57,842 nt of DNA from a virus: positions 1 through 57,842 of IMG/VR virus record IMGVR_UViG_3300029787_000045, one strand, 5' to 3'. This document shows, piece after piece, positions 1 through 57,842 of the stretch. Made by a program: the position numbers and the translations under genes. Below the pieces are notes generated by a model. The model did no database searches and had not been told where the DNA came from. It saw only the letters and a list, made by a program, of their open reading frames with translations. How positions within the stretch are numbered: position 1 is the first letter of the stretch; each line of letters opens with the position of its first letter.

Positions 1-153
1 AGCATTAGATAAAGCTCTTAGCCCAAAATCTTCTACTCAAGAAGTAACACCTATAAATCTTAGGGATACTAATGATTTATCTAACGCAAGCGTAGATGAT
101 TTAATAGCATTAGATAAAGCTCTTAGCCCAAAATCTTCTACTCAAGAAGTAAC
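1..153 (+). repeat. Tandem 105-bp (35-codon) repeat, left end
   Basis: Positions 1-48 recur at 106-153, a period of 105 bp or 35 codons, with unit protein TNDLSNASVDDLIALDKALS then PKSSTQEVTPINLRD. Bases 4-101 are identical to 57745-57842 at the other end of the window; position 3 (c) differs from 57744 (a). The repeat lies inside the ejection-protein gene and keeps its frame. Confidence 0.95.
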
Positions 154-8486: not shown

Positions 8487-8960
8487 TTAGTCTATTTCAG
8501 TGGTATCTTCCTTCTCTTCTACCACCTCTATAGCTTCTTCTTCTTCATCCTCCATGAAATCACACTTGTTTAGTAGGGTATATACTTTATCTGGACCCAG
8601 TATATTTAAACATTGTACTATACCTTCATCCAAAGACTTCTCATCAATCCCTCCATCCATGTCAGAGTTATTACCTCTAATCCTAGACAATAACTCAAGA
8701 GCTTTTAATGCACTATTTGTATGACCGTTGGCTCTTGCAAATGTATATTGATTCTCGATCTCTTCAATAACATCTACATTAGTTACGAGTTCATTCTCTA
8801 GTTCTCTTACTCTTTCTGCAACCTCTTCATTATTGATAAGCCTGTAGCCTTGGTTGGCTGCTGACGCTGCTGAGTATCCTGCTACTTTTGCTGCTTCAGT
8901 TGCATTCCTATGCAGGATATATGACTGAGCAAACTTTTCCTGTTTTTCATTAAGAGCCAT
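8487..8960 (-). CDS. terS: Terminase small subunit (Terminase_2-like)
   Basis: 157 residues. The N-terminus EKQEKFAQSYI, then NATEAAKVAGYS, with a following segment rich in Asn/Glu (NNEEVAERV), is the helix-turn-helix DNA-binding pattern of the Terminase_2 small-subunit family. The C-terminus is very acidic (EDEEEEAIEVVEEKE). TerS recognises the packaging site and recruits the large subunit. Oddly, it is the last gene of the leftward operon, 21.5 kb from terL (30524) and on the other strand. No strong ribosome binding site is seen. Alternative: another HTH regulator. Confidence 0.75.
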   Translation of the reverse strand: MALNEKQEKFAQSYILHRNATEAAKVAGYSAASAANQGYRLINNEEVAERVRELENELVTNVDVIEEIENQYTFARANGHTNSALKALELLSRIRGNNSDMDGGIDEKSLDEGIVQCLNILGPDKVYTLLNKCDFMEDEEEEAIEVVEEKEDTTEID

Positions 8961-8972
8961 ATGTGAACTAAC

Positions 8973-9380
8973 TTAATTATGCTTCATGTTATTTCTTTGT
9001 GTACCATTCTTTTTCTCAAAAGTACGCATACCACCAAGACCTAAGAGAGCAAGTGTTAGTGACATTAATCCTTCAGTTTCAATATTAGGTAGCACTATAG
9101 ATTGACCGCTGACAGCCATAAACCATAATGCTACTGGTAGAAAAACAAACTGCCAAGCTAAACCAAAAGCACATATCCACATGATAGCAGGTCTTGCCCC
9201 TGCAATAAAAATTGAAGGATGTTTAGCCTGTTCTTTATTCACTTCTATTTGAGCAAGGTTTGCATCTGAGTATGCTTTACGCAACTCAAAGTCTAACTTA
9301 GTTTTTAAATCTTTATCCTCAATAAATTTATCAAGAATTTTACCTGTTACTCCAATAACTGAATCTGCAATTCCTAACAT
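8973..9380 (-). CDS. Holin, 3TM type
   Basis: 135 residues: an amphipathic N-terminal helix (1-50), then HPSIFIAGARPAIMW leading into hydrophobic segments at about 55-75 and 78-92, and a last one around 105-118 ending in LGLGGMRTFEKKNG. The pattern of charged helix, (H)PS-x-F-x-AG-x-RP, membrane segments and GLGGxRTxEK is typical of the Holin_3TM family. It permeabilises the inner membrane to release or activate the M15 endolysin at 5601. It has a good GGAGAAGAATA ribosome binding site and lies between the methyltransferase and TerS, leftward, so lysis functions are split across strands. Confidence 0.8.
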   Translation of the reverse strand: MLGIADSVIGVTGKILDKFIEDKDLKTKLDFELRKAYSDANLAQIEVNKEQAKHPSIFIAGARPAIMWICAFGLAWQFVFLPVALWFMAVSGQSIVLPNIETEGLMSLTLALLGLGGMRTFEKKNGTQRNNMKHN

Positions 9381-10102
9381 TATTCTTCTCCTAATATTAC
9401 ATTGTTTGTATCTTTATCCCTTTGAGTTAGGGGTACAATATTAATACGCTTATGTATCTTATACCCCTCTGTTACTAGTTTATTATCTTCGTTTACAACA
9501 TCAAAGAAGACATAGACAGTAAAGTCTGGATACTGTTTAGTAAAGTCTTCAGTAATCTCAGCAATATATTGCAACCAATCATAGGGACTGTGTATAGAAA
9601 TATGTGCATTACTACCATCAGATAACTTCTTTACTGCTGGCATACATGCAATATTAAGAAACACCATCTTTTGAGAGTAGCTAAAGATTTCCCTGATCAC
9701 CCAATCTAAATCACTAGTTGGCACATGTTCTAATACATCAGTTGAAATAACTGCATCATACAAACCCATTGGCAACTTGTTATGCTCTTCATACCCCGGA
9801 TCAAAGAGTGCAAGCTTATCCAATCCCCAATACTCAGTAAGAGGTACTTGCAGTGCATCATTACTGCGAGTTACTTTCTTAAAGTCTTCTGTATATAGAA
9901 GACCCTTACCACAACCATAATCAATTAGACTTTTACATTCATGCTTGTCTAAATAATTTTTAATTATATCTATAAACTTTACGAGACTACGCCCATTGAA
10001 CATACCGTCACTAACTTTGTGCATATTCTGGTATTCAATGAGTAGCTCAGTGTATCTCTTGGATGGTCCCTGCCTACTCAATAACTTATTAGTATCAATC
10101 AT
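9380..10102 (-). CDS. SAM-dependent methyltransferase (class I fold)
   Basis: 240 residues. Motif I DYGCGKG (SAM-binding glycine loop) lies near residue 61, followed by an acidic turn and YDAVISTDVLEHV (motif IV region), typical of Methyltransf_11/23-type small-molecule or glycan methyltransferases rather than DNA methylases (no DPPY/NPPY). ATG 10102 is chosen because GAGGGATATT precedes it at good spacing; a TTG four codons upstream is less likely. The start lies within the end of the tripartite glycan protein. Context with two glycosyltransferase-like genes suggests methylation of a sugar or glycan; inference. Confidence 0.7.
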   Translation of the reverse strand: MIDTNKLLSRQGPSKRYTELLIEYQNMHKVSDGMFNGRSLVKFIDIIKNYLDKHECKSLIDYGCGKGLLYTEDFKKVTRSNDALQVPLTEYWGLDKLALFDPGYEEHNKLPMGLYDAVISTDVLEHVPTSDLDWVIREIFSYSQKMVFLNIACMPAVKKLSDGSNAHISIHSPYDWLQYIAEITEDFTKQYPDFTVYVFFDVVNEDNKLVTEGYKIHKRINIVPLTQRDKDTNNVILGEE

Positions 10103-12470
10103 AATATCCCTCAAATTGTGGACGTTTTTCTTTGGCTTCCTTAAGATTCCACAGATCAGCTACCATAGTATTTTTACCATGGAAAGTCAATACACCTTCA
10201 AGACCTTCATCGGAGAATACTTTTTCACAGTCCTGACCCATAGCTAGAAGTTCACCTGTAGTCCAATATGTGTTGTTGTCTACTGTTACTTGGAAGTATT
10301 TAGGTCTAGGTGTCTCACCACCTTCTAAATCTCCTGTAGTCTCAGTCATCTGCTCCTTGGTAGGCTCTTCCATACAGCAATCAAAACCAAAAAGATGAAT
10401 GTCTCTAAAGCCTAGAGTATGAAGCATACCTATACCCCTCATGGCAGCACACGTACCGCCTGTAATTAGGGTAGCACCCTTTGGAATGCCTAGCTCATCC
10501 ATGATCTTTACTTGCTGGTTTTTAATCTGCTGACCTTGTTCTTCCTCACTTCTTAGTGAATCAGTAAAGGCGTGCCATCCCCATACATTACAATCATTCT
10601 CAATAAGATATTCAGTAACACTAGGATCAGTCATGGATGCCACCATAAACCTAGTTTTACGATTAAGCTTTTTAAATAATTCCTTACGTACTATACCATG
10701 GGTAGATACACCAGTGATAGGACGTGGATCAAGAATAATACAACCCCAAGGAACAATACCATTCTTTAAAAGAGTAGGATATGAATGTTTAACACATAAC
10801 ACTTTAATATCTTTGTGTTCATTAATTAACTCTTTAATATCAGCATAGTCAGTAAAAGGACCAGCTGATACCAGAATAGCTTTACCTTTATGTATTGGAT
10901 GTTTAGATACCCACTTCTTATCATTAAGAAGTTTCATATTAGAGATAATGTTATTTCTAATATAATCTTTAGGAACACAGTCCCTTGGGTGTACAATTAC
11001 AGGGACTCTCTTTAATTCATCAGGGCATTCGGGAAGTGAGCTATCGGAGAGAATAAGAGCGAGATGAGTATTCCCACCACCAACAACATTATCACTAGAA
11101 GGTAGAACGTATTTCCTAACATCAGTGGATTCATCGAATACAGTCCAACCATCCTCAGTAGTTTCTTGAGCGTTAACTTTCTTCGTAGGTATTTTATTAA
11201 AGACATTTTTAACTCCATGATATTCTTCTGGGGGTATATTATCTTCATCGTCTTTAGTAAAGAAATGATCCATAACTACAATAGGAACATGTTTAAGCAT
11301 AGAATATTCATGCTCTACAGTTTTAATACTATTACCACTACCTATCATAGCAAAATCAATCTTACCTAGTGTTAAAGATGTGAGAGTATTACGTACATTT
11401 CCTTTATGAAGTTCAAAAGTAAACTTCTTATTACTCTTCTTCATAACTTCGGTAAACTCATTCAGTCTTTTAACAACTGCGTTATAAGTATTATGAGGTT
11501 TTACATTAAATTCTTCTTCATCAATTTCAATACTGGCATCTTCAAATAGATCGTAGCCAATGTAATGTACTTCATCGGAGTTTTCAAATGAGGCCAAAGC
11601 CATTTCAATAGCACGACCGCCATTCCATGTACCTGTTTCTAAGATAGTCTTTGGCTTGTAGTTCCTTATAATATCAGCAAGCTGCTTGTACCTATTAGGT
11701 AAGATGTCAGGAGAGGTTGCTTCATCAGATAGTTTAAATATTCTTTCACCATTAGCATCCCTAAGAGCAATATTAGTACTACCCTTTAGATGAATAAAGA
11801 GATCGTTTACTATAGAGTTTTGTGAGCTTAGTTCATGTACTCGCATACCATGAGCAGTATAGATAGTCATAAGCCTACTCATAATGAAACCATCAAACCA
11901 CTCACGATAGTTTAAAAATTCACTAGAGATATAACAACCACGTAGATCGCCAAGCATATCAACAGGTGTTTGTCGTGATAGATTAAAACCCTGTAAAAAA
12001 TAGTCTGGATCACCCTCATCATCCACTAGATAAACGATGTCACATTTATCTTCGTTAATGGGTAACATCTTATTAAGAGAATCTACTGTAATATTTTTCT
12101 TAGAAATAGTATCAGCATCTAACCAAAACAACCAACACTTCTCATTCTCAAATGCAGCTTCAGTGAGAGCCATTACTTTAGGTATGAATGTAGTGGCATC
12201 TATTGCACGATTATACTGTACTGCTCCTCCTTCAGTTCCGTTGTGTATTTTATTAGCTTCCATACACTCATTGTATTCTTCCATTTCTTCTAGGTTATGG
12301 TAGAAGATGTTGTTAGCCTTGGGAAGAGAATGTTTTTTAATATCTACATCATAGTAGTAACAATGAATCTCTATAGATGATTCCCATGAGGTAGTCATCA
12401 ACCTAAGAAGATGCGAAGACATCTTCTGTAGGTAGTCTTCATTGAAACATGTTACAAACTTATACTTCAT
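10095..12470 (-). CDS. Three-domain glycosyltransferase / methyltransferase / DUF115 fusion protein
   Basis: 791 residues, three apparent modules. Residues 1-240 look like a GT-A nucleotide-sugar glycosyltransferase (KCWLFWLDADTISKK, with the metal-binding DAD at 118-120). Residues 255-440 look like a SAM methyltransferase of the Methyltransf_24 type (ILETGTWNGG 276-285, VHYIGYDLF 301-309, then DFAMIGSG). Residues 525-760 resemble DUF115/MptE-like proteins, the family found in Maf flagellin glycosylation factors (AILVSAGPFTDY, ILDPRP, LITGGTCAAMRG, HLFGFDCCME). It overlaps both neighbours (methyltransferase and glycosyltransferase) and lies in the operon started by the promoter at 13337. It may build or modify a host or virion glycan. 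The fusion is unusual for a phage. Domain calls are by eye. Confidence 0.6.
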   Translation of the reverse strand: MKYKFVTCFNEDYLQKMSSHLLRLMTTSWESSIEIHCYYYDVDIKKHSLPKANNIFYHNLEEMEEYNECMEANKIHNGTEGGAVQYNRAIDATTFIPKVMALTEAAFENEKCWLFWLDADTISKKNITVDSLNKMLPINEDKCDIVYLVDDEGDPDYFLQGFNLSRQTPVDMLGDLRGCYISSEFLNYREWFDGFIMSRLMTIYTAHGMRVHELSSQNSIVNDLFIHLKGSTNIALRDANGERIFKLSDEATSPDILPNRYKQLADIIRNYKPKTILETGTWNGGRAIEMALASFENSDEVHYIGYDLFEDASIEIDEEEFNVKPHNTYNAVVKRLNEFTEVMKKSNKKFTFELHKGNVRNTLTSLTLGKIDFAMIGSGNSIKTVEHEYSMLKHVPIVVMDHFFTKDDEDNIPPEEYHGVKNVFNKIPTKKVNAQETTEDGWTVFDESTDVRKYVLPSSDNVVGGGNTHLALILSDSSLPECPDELKRVPVIVHPRDCVPKDYIRNNIISNMKLLNDKKWVSKHPIHKGKAILVSAGPFTDYADIKELINEHKDIKVLCVKHSYPTLLKNGIVPWGCIILDPRPITGVSTHGIVRKELFKKLNRKTRFMVASMTDPSVTEYLIENDCNVWGWHAFTDSLRSEEEQGQQIKNQQVKIMDELGIPKGATLITGGTCAAMRGIGMLHTLGFRDIHLFGFDCCMEEPTKEQMTETTGDLEGGETPRPKYFQVTVDNNTYWTTGELLAMGQDCEKVFSDEGLEGVLTFHGKNTMVADLWNLKEAKEKRPQFEGYYD

Positions 12471-13242
12471 TATACATATCCATTGGCTTTACTTTACCTC
12501 GCCCTGCTAGGTATGTATAATCTCCATTCCATTCGGCTGCATACTTGCCATCAATAGTCCGACCACACTTCCAATCTTTAAACCAAGGCCCACCTGTAGT
12601 AAAGTGTACGTTCTTAGCATTCATGTCTTCTGGAGAATGGTTGTCCAACCAGTTCCATTCTTCATGGATAGTTCCTATATCAGAATCTTTATCAGGAAGC
12701 CACTCAAAGCCGTGCAGGTATCTACCTGTTTGTGTGTTTACAAGTTCAGGGGTAAGATTCTTATTGAGATTATGACCACAGTTAAAGAGCATAAGGCTAG
12801 ACCAATTCTTACGGCGGTAATTTTCTTGCTTACGTCCATCCATTTTAAAACCATCACCCGGTTCATACTTATGTTTAACACAGTATAGAGGGTAGTAGTC
12901 TGAGTTATACTCTTCAAAGATTTCATTGATGTCAGTACGTAGGTACATGTCAGAGTCCATGTACAAGGCCCAACCTTCATACATGTTCATGGCTGGTACC
13001 AAAAAGCGGGTAAAACTAAACTCACTTGAGAAGGGCTTACCATCAATCTTATCAATAGTTTGTCCATCAACTACATCAAACTTTCTGGTGTACATTCCCA
13101 TTCGTTCTACTACATCACGCCGGATAGGTACAACACGTACATTATCTACGGCTATGCGTTCAATTGTAAACTTTAAAACTTCATAGGCTGTATCTTCTTT
13201 AGGATCATATCCTATGTATACAGTGTTGGGTGATTTCTTCAT
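12460..13242 (-). CDS. Glycosyltransferase, GT-A fold (GT8-like)
   Basis: 260 residues. The N-terminus TVYIGYDPKEDTAYEVL, the mid-region GWALYMDSDMYL with a DSD metal-binding motif near residue 95, and NWSSLMLFNCGHN are typical of GT8-like retaining glycosyltransferases acting on sugar nucleotides. ATG 13242 is preceded by AAGGAACATAG, which is the tail of the HNH remnant. Its end overlaps the start of the three-domain fusion by 11 nt. It likely works with that protein on the same glycan. Confidence 0.75.
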   Translation of the reverse strand: MKKSPNTVYIGYDPKEDTAYEVLKFTIERIAVDNVRVVPIRRDVVERMGMYTRKFDVVDGQTIDKIDGKPFSSEFSFTRFLVPAMNMYEGWALYMDSDMYLRTDINEIFEEYNSDYYPLYCVKHKYEPGDGFKMDGRKQENYRRKNWSSLMLFNCGHNLNKNLTPELVNTQTGRYLHGFEWLPDKDSDIGTIHEEWNWLDNHSPEDMNAKNVHFTTGGPWFKDWKCGRTIDGKYAAEWNGDYTYLAGRGKVKPMDMYNEV

Positions 13243-13326
13243 CTATGTTCCTTTTTTCCAGAAGAGTTTACCAGTATCAGGATTGTAAGTTAATAATTCT
13301 CTAGCTATTTCAGCAGTAAGTTCCAT
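13243..13326 (-). pseudogene. HNH endonuclease N-terminal remnant, now a 27-codon leader ORF
   Basis: A 27-residue ORF starting MELTAEIARELLTYNPDTGK and ending LFWKKGT. This is the conserved opening of phage HNH homing endonucleases (L-T-x-E-x-x-x-x-LL-x-YxPxTGxLxWK). Everything after the W-K is missing: the TAG follows at once and the glycosyltransferase starts at the next base. It retains a good ribosome binding site (AAGGATAATTATT). Either a decayed mobile gene or one kept as a leader peptide coupling translation to the glycosyltransferase. Confidence 0.65.
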
Positions 13327-13336
13327 AATAATTATC

Positions 13337-13365
13337 CTTATACACTATATTTGTTTATCTGTCAA
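13337..13365 (-). promoter_or_regulatory. Sigma-70-type promoter, leftward, before the glycan/lysis/terS genes
   Basis: Minus strand: TTGACA (13365-13360), 17-bp spacer, TATAAG (13342-13337). The -35 is perfect and lies across the end of nrdB. The predicted start, near 13330, is just upstream of the HNH remnant. It would separate late expression of the glycan genes, holin and terS from the replication genes upstream. Confidence 0.7.
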
Positions 13366-46163: not shown

Positions 46164-46438
46164 TGGCAAGTAATAAAAATGCACTAGCCATGTGTGATAC
46201 ATGTGGCTTTGTCTACCCTCATCGGGTAATGCGTTTTAATAGTTATGGTATGTTAGTATGTCCTACAGACTTTGAAGGACAGTATGATTTAAAGAACCAT
46301 CCACAAAATAAAGTCCCTGATGTTAGAGACAATCCTGCTATACGTGATCCACGACCTGATAATGGTGGTAGGAATCTTACGTGGGAGCAAGCTACGACTA
46401 ATTGGGAAGACACAGACAAGTATTGGAACTTAATATGA
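46163..46438 (+). CDS. Small zinc-ribbon-like protein
   Basis: 91 residues; CDTCGFVYP (11-19) and CPTDFEG (33-39) form one C-x2-C / C pattern that may bind zinc. Typical small protein next to the adaptor in marine podoviruses. TAATG and ATGA overlaps with both neighbours. Confidence 0.6.
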   Translation: MASNKNALAMCDTCGFVYPHRVMRFNSYGMLVCPTDFEGQYDLKNHPQNKVPDVRDNPAIRDPRPDNGGRNLTWEQATTNWEDTDKYWNLI

Positions 46439-48741
46439 CAGACTTAACCGGAAAAACAATTGCTAATACTTATAAACAACTACTAAGAGTTGGTGTAAGT
46501 ACTAATACTGGTGTTAGTGCTGGCCTTACTACTATTGAAAGTGGTGATGGCACAGATAGTTCTTTTCAATTAGCAACTAACTCTGCTAAATTTACTGGTA
46601 CGCTTGCTGTAAATGGTGCTACTTCTATTGGTGATAGTTTGCATGTAGATGAAAAAGTATGTGCTTCTGCATTCTATGGTGATGGTTCTAATATTACTGG
46701 TGTTACTGCAACTATTGCTGGAAACATATCAGTCAGTAATGCCACAGTAGGTGGTAATTTATATGTAGGTGGTACGACTACTATAGTAGGTGCAACACAT
46801 CTACAGGCTGCTGTATCGGTTGGTGGCGCAGCACAGTTTGGTTCTACAGTTACAGTAGCAGGTGCAGCACAATTACAGAGTACAGTAACAGCCGTAGGAG
46901 CAGCTACCTTTAAATCTACAGTTACAGTAGAGAATGTAGCAGCCCTGAAAAACAATGTAACAGTAGGCGGTACATTTAATGTAGCAGGTGCTTCTGACTT
47001 TACATCCAAGGCAACTTTTAATAATGACGTATCAGTAAGCGGTAGACTTGATGTAGCAACATCAGCATGTATTGGTGGTATTCTTGATGTTGAAGGTGTA
47101 GCAAACTTTGCAACTAATGTAAGTGTAAGTGGTAATGTAAATGTTGTTGGAAATGTAACTGCTGCCTTCTTCTATGGTGATGGTCGTAATCTTACAAACG
47201 TAGAAGCAGAGTTAGGTACTGCTGCTAATATTTCTGTTGCTGGCTTTGTAAATGTAGGAACTAGTCTTTCTGTTAGCGGTACAGCCAATGTAATTGGTGC
47301 TGCTAGTTTTCAATCTACTGTTACAGCAGTTGGTGCAGCTACATTCAAAGATGATGTATCAGTAAGTGGTAATACTAGACTACTAGGTACAGTCACAGTT
47401 GGTGGGGCAGTATCTCTTGCTTCTACATTAAGTGTTGGTGGTGCCTCTAATTTTGCATCTACTGTCACAGTTGGTGGAGCAGTAAGCCTAGCATCTTCTC
47501 TTAGTGTAGGAGGAGTTGCTAACTTTGCTAATACAGTAACTATAGCTGGAGCAGTCTCTCTTGCTTCTACACTAAGTGTTGGTGGTGCCTCTAATTTTGC
47601 ATCTACTGTCACAGTAGTAGGCGCAGGTACTTTTAAAGACGACGTAAGTGTAAGTGGTAATACTAGACTGCTAGGCACAGTTACAGTTGGTGGGGCAGTT
47701 TCTTTAGCTTCTACTTTAAGTGTGGGTGGAGTTGCTAACTTTGCAAATACTGTGACAGTTGCAGGTGCTGTAAGTCTAGCCTCTACTCTCAGTGTTGGAG
47801 GAGCATCTAATTTTGCATCTACTGTCACAGTAGTAGGAGCAGGAACATTTAAAAGCAATGTATCAGTAAGTGGTAATGTAGACATAGCAGGTAATGTATC
47901 TGTAGGTGGCACACTCTTTGCTGCTGGTGGTATTACATATGATGGTGATGTATCAGTCTCTGGTAACTTAGCAGTAGGTGGTAATGTATCTGTAGGTGGC
48001 ACATTAAGTGTTACAGGCGCAGTAAGTCTAGCATCTTCTTTAAGTGTTGGTGGTGCTACTAATCTTTTAGGTACAGTGACTGCTACAGGTAATGCAGGGT
48101 TCTTAGGAACTGTTAGGGTAAGTGGAGCTACAAGTCTTGAGAATGCTTTAAATGTTACAGGAGCAGCTTTATTCTCTTCTACTGTAACTGTTGTAGGTGC
48201 AACACACTTACAAAGCACTGTCTCAGTAGCTGGAAATACACAGCTAAGTGGCACATTAACCGTAGGTGTTAATGACACCGGACATGACGTAAAATTCTTC
48301 GGAGCAACCGATGGTTCCTATATGCTATGGGATGAAAGCACTGATGATTTGATTTTGGGTGGAGATTCAAAGATGGGCATTGGTACGGCTAGCCCAGCAA
48401 AGAAATTTACCTTAGATGGTTCTTCTTTAGCCACTATTGGTACACTAACAGATGGCGCAACTATTACGCCTAACTTTGATACTAACCAGAACTTCTCTGT
48501 TACTCTTGGAGGCAACCGTACACTTGCTAATCCAAGCAACATTGATGCGGGACAGACAGGCAGTATCTTTGTTGTGCAAGATGGCACAGGATCAAGAACA
48601 TTGTCCTTTGGTTCTTATTGGAAATTTGCTGATGGTACTGCTCCTACACTATCTACCGCAGCAGGATCAGTTGATAGAATTGATTATATCGTGTACACTG
48701 CTACAGCTATTCATGCTGTTGCAACTTTTAACATAAGTTAA
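46435..48741 (+). CDS. Tail fibre with beta-solenoid repeats
   Basis: 768 residues from ATG 46435, which overlaps the stop before it. Residues ~75-610 are repeated 16-18-residue units of the type TVTVGGAVSLASTLSVGGAS, N-terminal IANTYKQLLRVGV attaches to the virion, and FYGDGSNITGV/FYGDGRNLTNV blocks recur. The C-terminus (ILGGDSKMGIGTASPAKKF, then ATITPNFDTNQNFSVTL) is a different fold. A trimeric fibre for host binding. Confidence 0.85.
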   Translation: MTDLTGKTIANTYKQLLRVGVSTNTGVSAGLTTIESGDGTDSSFQLATNSAKFTGTLAVNGATSIGDSLHVDEKVCASAFYGDGSNITGVTATIAGNISVSNATVGGNLYVGGTTTIVGATHLQAAVSVGGAAQFGSTVTVAGAAQLQSTVTAVGAATFKSTVTVENVAALKNNVTVGGTFNVAGASDFTSKATFNNDVSVSGRLDVATSACIGGILDVEGVANFATNVSVSGNVNVVGNVTAAFFYGDGRNLTNVEAELGTAANISVAGFVNVGTSLSVSGTANVIGAASFQSTVTAVGAATFKDDVSVSGNTRLLGTVTVGGAVSLASTLSVGGASNFASTVTVGGAVSLASSLSVGGVANFANTVTIAGAVSLASTLSVGGASNFASTVTVVGAGTFKDDVSVSGNTRLLGTVTVGGAVSLASTLSVGGVANFANTVTVAGAVSLASTLSVGGASNFASTVTVVGAGTFKSNVSVSGNVDIAGNVSVGGTLFAAGGITYDGDVSVSGNLAVGGNVSVGGTLSVTGAVSLASSLSVGGATNLLGTVTATGNAGFLGTVRVSGATSLENALNVTGAALFSSTVTVVGATHLQSTVSVAGNTQLSGTLTVGVNDTGHDVKFFGATDGSYMLWDESTDDLILGGDSKMGIGTASPAKKFTLDGSSLATIGTLTDGATITPNFDTNQNFSVTLGGNRTLANPSNIDAGQTGSIFVVQDGTGSRTLSFGSYWKFADGTAPTLSTAAGSVDRIDYIVYTATAIHAVATFNIS
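47390..47900 (+). repeat. Repeats in the tail-fibre gene
   Basis: Blocks such as TCTAATTTTGCATCTACTGT recur exactly at about 47450, 47590 and 47810, and GTAAGTGGTAATACTAGACT occurs at 47360 and 47650. Stretches of tens of bases are identical, giving substrates for recombination. Confidence 0.85.
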
Positions 48742-57685: not shown

Positions 57686-57842
57686 ATGACAACTAATTTA
57701 AATACTAATGATTTATCTAACGCAAGCGTAGATGATTTAATAGAATTAGATAAAGCTCTTAGCCCAAAATCTTCTACTCAAGAAGTAACACCTATAAATC
57801 TTAGGGATACTAATGATTTATCTAACGCAAGCGTAGATGATT
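57686..57842 (+). CDS. Giant ejection (internal virion) protein, N-terminal part
   Basis: Start of a gene that leaves the window at the right end and continues in frame at position 2 on the left. ATG 57686 follows an AGGAAAGATTTCTA ribosome-binding stretch and lies 15 nt after the stop of the preceding ejection protein. The 52 visible codons hold one and a half copies of a 35-residue repeat (core NDLSNASVDDLI, LDKALSPKSSTQEV). Depending on how the ends join, the whole protein is about 1802 residues (two repeats) or 1837 (three). The role is inferred from the left-end part. Confidence 0.85.
   Translation, partial: MTTNLNTNDLSNASVDDLIELDKALSPKSSTQEVTPINLRDTNDLSNASVDD
57704..57842 (+). repeat. 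Tandem 105-bp repeat / terminal overlap, right end
   Basis: About 1.3 units of the 35-codon repeat. The last 98 bases equal bases 4-101 of the window. This copy encodes ELDKA where the left copies encode ALDKA, so the overlap is not a perfect end-to-end match: the copies may be distinct members of a longer array. Confidence 0.95.

Follow-up and report, generated by a model that had tools for sequence, protein, structure and literature searches.

A block of three overlapping genes in a marine virus genome was found to encode a set of enzymes whose best-supported product is a methylated glycan made by the phage itself. The window analysed, by which we mean the whole 57,842-nucleotide stretch of IMG/VR record IMGVR_UViG_3300029787_000045, carries genes for a GT8-fold glycosyltransferase, a 791-residue fusion protein and a stand-alone methyltransferase. 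The enzyme classes predicted for this module are well supported by profiles and structural models. From homologues and characterised relatives we infer that the acceptor would be the virion, that the sugar would be Kdo and that the benefit would lie in protecting or tuning the particle surface. Virus-encoded enzymes that build glycans are known; what is new is the fused architecture, of which no description was found in the literature searched.

Organization of the gene block

The three ORFs lie on the minus strand, and in the ORF listing of the window each overlaps the next (12460-13242, 10095-12470 and 9380-10114), as expected of the coupled block proposed in the sequence-only reading. The start of the stand-alone methyltransferase is probably the ATG at 10102 rather than the TTG at 10114, giving a gene at 9380..10102. 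Profile searches of the window ORFs placed the two RNR subunits upstream of the block. Downstream, in the same cassette and in agreement with the neighbours first named, are a holin (8973..9380, minus strand; profile match to GTA_holin_3TM) and, as the cassette's final gene, the terminase small subunit (TerS; 8487..8960, minus strand; Terminase_2, 1.2e-14). The cassette order is thus GT8, fusion, methyltransferase, holin, TerS. The holin start overlaps the methyltransferase stop in a TAATG join, and TerS follows the holin after 12 bp. No hydrophobic segment was found in the three module proteins (maximum 19-residue mean 1.12).

A promoter, TTGACA-N17-TATAAG, was read directly at 13337..13365 on the minus strand, with its -35 box overlapping the stop codon of the RNR small subunit. 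Both hexamers are kept in L001, L002, L003, L005, L009, L011, L013, L015 and L024, in which the spacers and the downstream DNA differ; because of the overlap with the stop codon, conservation of the -35 box says little by itself. A sigma-70 scanner gave no call at 13337-13365, as it requires T at the last -10 position and the box here is TATAAG. The earlier claim that the module has its own promoter held in part: the box exists and is conserved in relatives, but it is not the module's alone, since the cassette runs on into holin and TerS. The overlap of holin and methyltransferase and the 12-bp gap before TerS point to a single unit with a shared promoter, which is probably common to all five genes.

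Between the promoter and the GT8 gene lies a remnant of an HNH (HNH_3/AP2) endonuclease gene (13243..13326, minus strand). Its start is that of the intact gene of about 600 bp in L001, L003, L009 and others, and its first 27 codons are all that the window keeps. The DNA downstream of the promoter comprises 47 bp in L002, 228 bp in L005 and about 600 bp with the HNH gene in L001, L003 and others. Most close relatives have an undamaged HNH/AP2 gene in this position (HNH_3, 2e-16 for the intact copy), and L002 lacks it.

The holin at 8973-9380 is 62-65% identical to the holins of L001, L002 and L003, where the flanking methyltransferase and TerS are 83-97% identical, and 80-85% identical to those of the more distant phages L004, L005 and L012. 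The holin allele seems, from these identities, to have been exchanged by recombination.

The first and last 101 bp of the window (1-101 and 57742-57842) overlap, with 99% identity, inside a local repeat. Probably the record represents a complete genome, either circular or terminally redundant, and the overlapping ends indicate that the window is nearly complete. Inspection of the overlap also ruled out a position of the block at an assembly join. The nearest cultured relatives are the SAR11 phages HTVC023P/HTVC027P and the Roseobacter phages CRP-901/902, which, like the metagenome-assembled DSL-LC04, are roughly 30-42% identical in TerL or portal.

Domain content of the three proteins

The domains first proposed, a GT8-like glycosyltransferase, a fusion of glycosyltransferase, methyltransferase and DUF115, and a separate methyltransferase, were recovered by profiles and folds. 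Structure prediction, which had been suggested as a check, returned GT8, O-methyltransferase and Maf folds for the 260-residue protein and the fusion, in agreement with that reading.

The 260-residue protein (12460..13242, minus strand) belongs to PHROG 28018 (3.8e-49), and shares with the phage glycosyltransferases of that family the GT8 fold and the DxD and HxxxGG motifs. Its AlphaFold model (pLDDT 92) matched WbbM (Z 17.0), LgtC (16.9), glycogenin (16.4) and GlyE (16.1). The metal-binding DxD residues D96 and D98, and H213, G217 and G218 of the C-terminal His motif (HFTTGGPW), are invariant in 31 sequences. Unlike GT8 members proper, the protein had no Pfam match, including to PF01501, and it forms a separate clade tied to the fusion gene; a SAR11 cellular homologue scored 23.0 against the PF01501 cut-off of 24.3. 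As that cut-off was not reached, we refer to the protein as GT8-fold and not as a GT8 member.

The fusion (10095..12470, minus strand) belongs to no PHROG family, and the AlphaFold model of the whole protein is of middling confidence (pLDDT 66). Its N-terminal domain (residues 1-235; 11766..12470, minus strand) is GT-A-like as judged by a DAD motif at 118-120, an HLKG motif and five residues (K98, D118, D120, E190 and D193) that are invariant in 17 diverse sequences. Profile support for this assignment is weak: Glycos_transf_2 (GT2) gave weak matches in 5 of the 17 sequences, and a profile of the domain found chance matches only among PDB sequences. Local HHalign detected no significant relation of the domain to GT8.

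The middle part (residues 229-478; 11037..11786, minus strand) is a predicted class I SAM O-methyltransferase of Rossmann-type fold. Methyltransf_24 matched residues 277-393 (1.3e-4) at 23.2 bits, slightly below the cut-off of 26.3. Fold comparison gave Z of about 12 to O-methyltransferases, including the TDP-rhamnose 3'-O-methyltransferase CalS11 and the rhamnosyl 4'-O-methyltransferase SpnH, and the glycine-rich motif I reads ETGTWNGG.

The C-terminal domain (residues 500-776; 10143..10973, minus strand) is MptE-like/DUF115. PF01973 matched residues 525-701 at 51.5 bits (1.3e-13), above its cut-off of 34.6, and the best structural match of the domain model was the flagellin glycosyltransferase Maf (5MU5; Z 18.6, rmsd 3.6 over 228 residues). 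The HPPK of M. jannaschii scored lower (Z 14.8), and the neighbourhood contains glycosyltransferases rather than the pterin genes that would go with archaeal HPPK (MptE), a 6-hydroxymethylpterin kinase of pterin synthesis. Maf proteins have flanking domains of their own in a three-domain layout, act on flagellin and are encoded beside flagellin genes. The domain here is fused to GT-A and methyltransferase domains in a phage genome, and we therefore did not file the fusion as a Maf.

The stand-alone protein (9380..10102, minus strand) is a predicted class I SAM methyltransferase, with a glycine-rich motif I (DYGCGKG) and a DVLEHV motif. It matched Methyltransf_23 (7e-6) at 26.3 bits against a cut-off of 27, and PHROG 24759 at 7e-17.

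Distribution and conservation of the module

A search for the same domain order in other phages, also put forward earlier, showed that the block is not unique. Domain profiles found the order GT8, GT-A+MT+DUF115 fusion, methyltransferase in 95 marine viral loci (about ten contigs counted twice), and searches of IMG/VR gave more than 550 relatives apiece for GT8 and for the fusion. In 127 of 141 loci RNR lay upstream, and in 115 of 127 a holin or TerS stood no more than five genes downstream. Among 13 records with TerL 76-95% identical to that of the window, the fusion and the methyltransferase were present in all eight with at least 39 kb of sequence and in one 29-kb record; the four without them are fragments of 27-35 kb. 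All three module genes and each fusion domain gave dN/dS of 0.05-0.16, indicating strong purifying selection. Co-linearity, presence in near-complete relatives and low dN/dS together show that the module is a conserved resident of a widespread ocean phage group and not stray cargo.

The module has variants. The fused methyltransferase occurs without the stand-alone gene in L066-L089, both methyltransferases are absent in L017-L023, and L092 and L111 carry a separate upstream methyltransferase with a fusion that lacks one. Strict co-variation of the two methyltransferases was rejected, as these loci break the pattern. The fusion is split in L051 and L060. By domain content, the constant core is GT8, GT-A and DUF115, and methylation is optional.

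Three further observations concern these relatives. In two related phages the match to the stand-alone methyltransferase contains one in-frame stop (G005:C1:30074-30754 and G006:C1:18745-19416), which suggests that this gene can decay with the fusion intact. Where neither methyltransferase is present in the module, as in L017, a gene resembling 2OG-Fe(II) oxygenases was seen by eye upstream of GT8 (L017:5778-6344). Contigs L094-L113 carry RecA/UvsX-like and UvsY-like genes (T4-like); their GT8 homologue often follows a fusion resembling a cytidylyltransferase and a mannose-6-phosphate isomerase, and is surrounded by several copies of an unassigned family of about 300 residues.

Homologues in cultured phages

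A tblastn search of the phage collection with the fusion gave no match, and a nucleotide search gave RNR matches only, among the matches listed. Cultured relatives were therefore reached through GT8 and the methyltransferase. GT8 homologues of 32-38% identity were found in 18 phage records, among them phages of Caulobacter, Pelagibacter and Synechococcus. In the Ccr phages of Caulobacter, in DLP6 and in ctDrO704, a metagenomic phage, GT8 has a homologous methyltransferase as its direct or near-direct neighbour. CcrColossus has the homologues next to its tail genes, and ctDrO704 has them close to the gene for the major capsid protein; in S20 a methyltransferase homologue is found in the vicinity of head genes, and in CRP-9 one adjoins the coat protein gene. 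Metabolic genes surround the GT8 homologues of Mosig and S-SCSM2R, and in the Pelagibacter phage Mosig a stand-alone GT-A homologue directly precedes the GT8 gene. The GT clusters of SAR11 and cyanobacterial myophages share homologous GT8 and GT-A genes with the module, but they consist of many unfused genes, and no Maf-like domain was found in them. PF01973 matches in CcrColossus and S20 fell below the cut-off and were discarded. Local HHalign gave no significant relation of the DUF115 domain to the Ccr genes annotated 'sialyltransferase'.

The sequence-only reading had known of no described phage system with this set of genes. This stands for the fusion, on whose GT-A+MT+DUF115 architecture or function a search of the open literature returned no publication. 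It does not stand for the parts: the pair of GT8 and methyltransferase occurs in cultured phages, MptE-like fusions of uncultured phages are present without names in UniProt/BFVD, and a published study of SAR11 myophages has treated their GT8 genes as LPS modifiers (PMC7029224).

Association with Kdo genes

The sugar was approached through the neighbours of GT8 homologues. The CMP-Kdo synthesis genes KdsA, KdsB and KdsD were all found near the homologue in 25 of 80 cellular loci, and at least one of them in 31, though many of these loci are related and independent Kds events are few. By chance, fewer than one KdsA would be expected in the roughly 1.1 Mb that these loci cover (an estimate, taking one copy per genome of about 2 Mb or larger). 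The loci with all three genes are cyanobacterial and acidimicrobial. The Synechococcus phage S-SCSM2R likewise has KdsA and KdsB near GT8.

In the GT8 tree, the module sequence falls in a 100/100 clade of 42 rows whose only cellular member is from a planctomycete (L193). There, a GT29 sialyltransferase gene and a KdsD-like gene lie directly downstream of GT8, in a cluster that also holds GT1, GT2, sulfotransferase and carbamoyltransferase genes. This locus excepted, the Kdo association belongs to other branches of the tree. No Kds neighbours were found for the GT8 homologues of SAR11 cells, and no Kds genes were seen near the module itself.

GT29 and PF01973 share a common sialyltransferase-like fold. 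Maf enzymes O-glycosylate Ser/Thr using CMP-ulosonic acids and accept CMP-Kdo; the Maf of C. botulinum, expressed in E. coli, adds Kdo to Ser/Thr, and PF01973 has been likened to Cst-II (PMC11339370). For a GT29 enzyme of plants, a role as CMP-Kdo transferase has been proposed (PMC11288761). The Kds neighbours, the likeness of GT29 and PF01973, and the use of Kdo by Maf together suggest that the Maf-like domain may use CMP-Kdo or a similar donor. A donor that can be tested is thereby suggested for a domain whose other known context is the glycosylation of flagellin.

As a separate observation, the GT8 homologue clusters with KdsA, KdsB and KdsD across L207-L261, in Prochlorococcus/Synechococcus and Acidimicrobiia, organisms in which Kdo-type LPS is not expected.

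Proposed product and acceptor of the module

The reading we favour, although we put it a little short of an even chance, is that the enzymes, acting in the cytoplasm, assemble a short methylated, probably Kdo-containing glycan on a protein of the virion, in the manner of A064R and A061L of the chlorovirus PBCV-1. In that virus A064R (GT-GT-MT) and a second methyltransferase methylate the glycan of the major capsid protein twice (PMC9614988). As in A064R and A061L, the genes here specify a virus-encoded multidomain glycosyltransferase joined to a SAM O-methyltransferase, and a second methyltransferase as a protein of its own; A064R also combines two GT domains with its methyltransferase in one cytoplasmic protein (PMC9614988), and the structure of its domain 1 (2p6w) is among the fold matches of the GT8 model. 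The systems differ in domain order, which is GT-MT-Maf plus a free GT8 in the module, and A064R has no Maf-like domain. Moreover, the PBCV-1 sugar is rhamnose rather than an ulosonic acid, and PBCV-1 is a eukaryotic virus.

In the proposed pathway, the GT8 enzyme and the GT-A domain would add ordinary sugars from host nucleotide sugars, and the Maf-like domain would add a CMP-activated ulosonic acid, for which Kdo drawn from the host CMP-Kdo pool is the simplest choice. The fused and the stand-alone methyltransferase would each add one O-methyl group. The glycan would be attached before assembly to a Ser/Thr-rich virion protein such as a tail fibre or capsid protein. The module would be expressed late, together with holin and TerS; that it shares their cassette makes late expression probable.

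A virion acceptor is favoured by the cassette shared with holin and TerS, by the homologous GT8 or methyltransferase genes near capsid or tail genes in ctDrO704, CcrColossus, S20 and CRP-9, by soluble enzymes, by the core status of the module and by the chlorovirus precedent. Maf, too, glycosylates a self-assembling protein. Against this, the block in the window adjoins RNR, holin and TerS rather than structural genes, and the GT8 homologues of Mosig and S-SCSM2R keep metabolic company. If virions are decorated, marine phage particles bear methylated sugars of their own making, which could affect adsorption, particle stability, grazing and sorption. The most specific form of this reading, that in marine podoviruses a core fused GT, O-methyltransferase and Maf-like enzyme puts a methylated Kdo glycan on the phage's own virion proteins via host CMP-Kdo, is rather unlikely to hold in every part. 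If true, the glycosylation of chlorovirus capsids would have its counterpart in bacteriophages, and these would be the first phage particles decorated with Kdo.

The main alternative, possible though on balance doubtful, is that the module instead remodels the envelope glycan (LPS or capsule) of the infected host. A methylated sugar of the Kdo type would keep other phages or the released progeny from adsorbing to cell or debris, and the module would then be a widespread competition device. Kdo is a sugar of LPS and capsule, and the GT8 folds closest to the module's are those of surface-polysaccharide enzymes (WbbM, LgtC). The cellular homologues lie in apparent surface-polysaccharide loci, as does the only cellular member of the module's own clade, which favours an envelope glycan, and the authors of the SAR11 myophage study read their GT8 genes in this way (PMC7029224). 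Yet exclusion should act early, whereas a cassette ending in holin and TerS suggests late expression, and the presence of the module in every near-complete relative is unlike typical exclusion cargo. The three-gene block contains no flippase, acyltransferase or membrane protein; unlike GtrABC serotype conversion, it has no membrane flippase or membrane glycosyltransferase, and its neighbours are holin, TerS and RNR. Homologues of its genes that adjoin capsid or tail genes in several phages also fit poorly with an envelope target.

Glycosylation of a host protein such as a receptor, pilin or flagellin, rather than of a virion protein or LPS, appears improbable. Maf, which among characterised proteins is the closest relative of the DUF115 domain, does modify flagellin, but of the hosts to which the nearest cultured phages point (SAR11, Roseobacter), SAR11 is not known to be motile, and no host target can be named. 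Shielding of DNA, the least supported of the roles proposed earlier, is very improbable; here the enzymes would glycosylate and methylate a modified base of phage DNA or nucleotides to block nucleases. The block follows RNR genes, and genes for DNA hypermodification are present in related pelagiphages of the HTVC023P type (PMC9599517), but no pyrimidine hydroxymethylase, thymidylate-synthase-like or aG/PT-PPase gene was found among the window ORFs scanned, none of the matches resembles DNA glycosyltransferases, and the Kdo-type genes next to the homologues speak for glycans of the surface.

For a glycan on the virion, a natural candidate acceptor in the window is a 779-residue tail-fibre-like protein (46402..48741, plus strand; PHROG 4549, tail fibre) with Ser/Thr-rich repeats, although nothing ties it to the module. 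Serine and threonine make up 25% of its residues, the highest value among the larger ORFs of the window, where the median is 12.7%. Within this gene, positions 47295-47999 form a Ser/Thr/Gly-rich repeat array with periods of 36, 72 and 144 bp.
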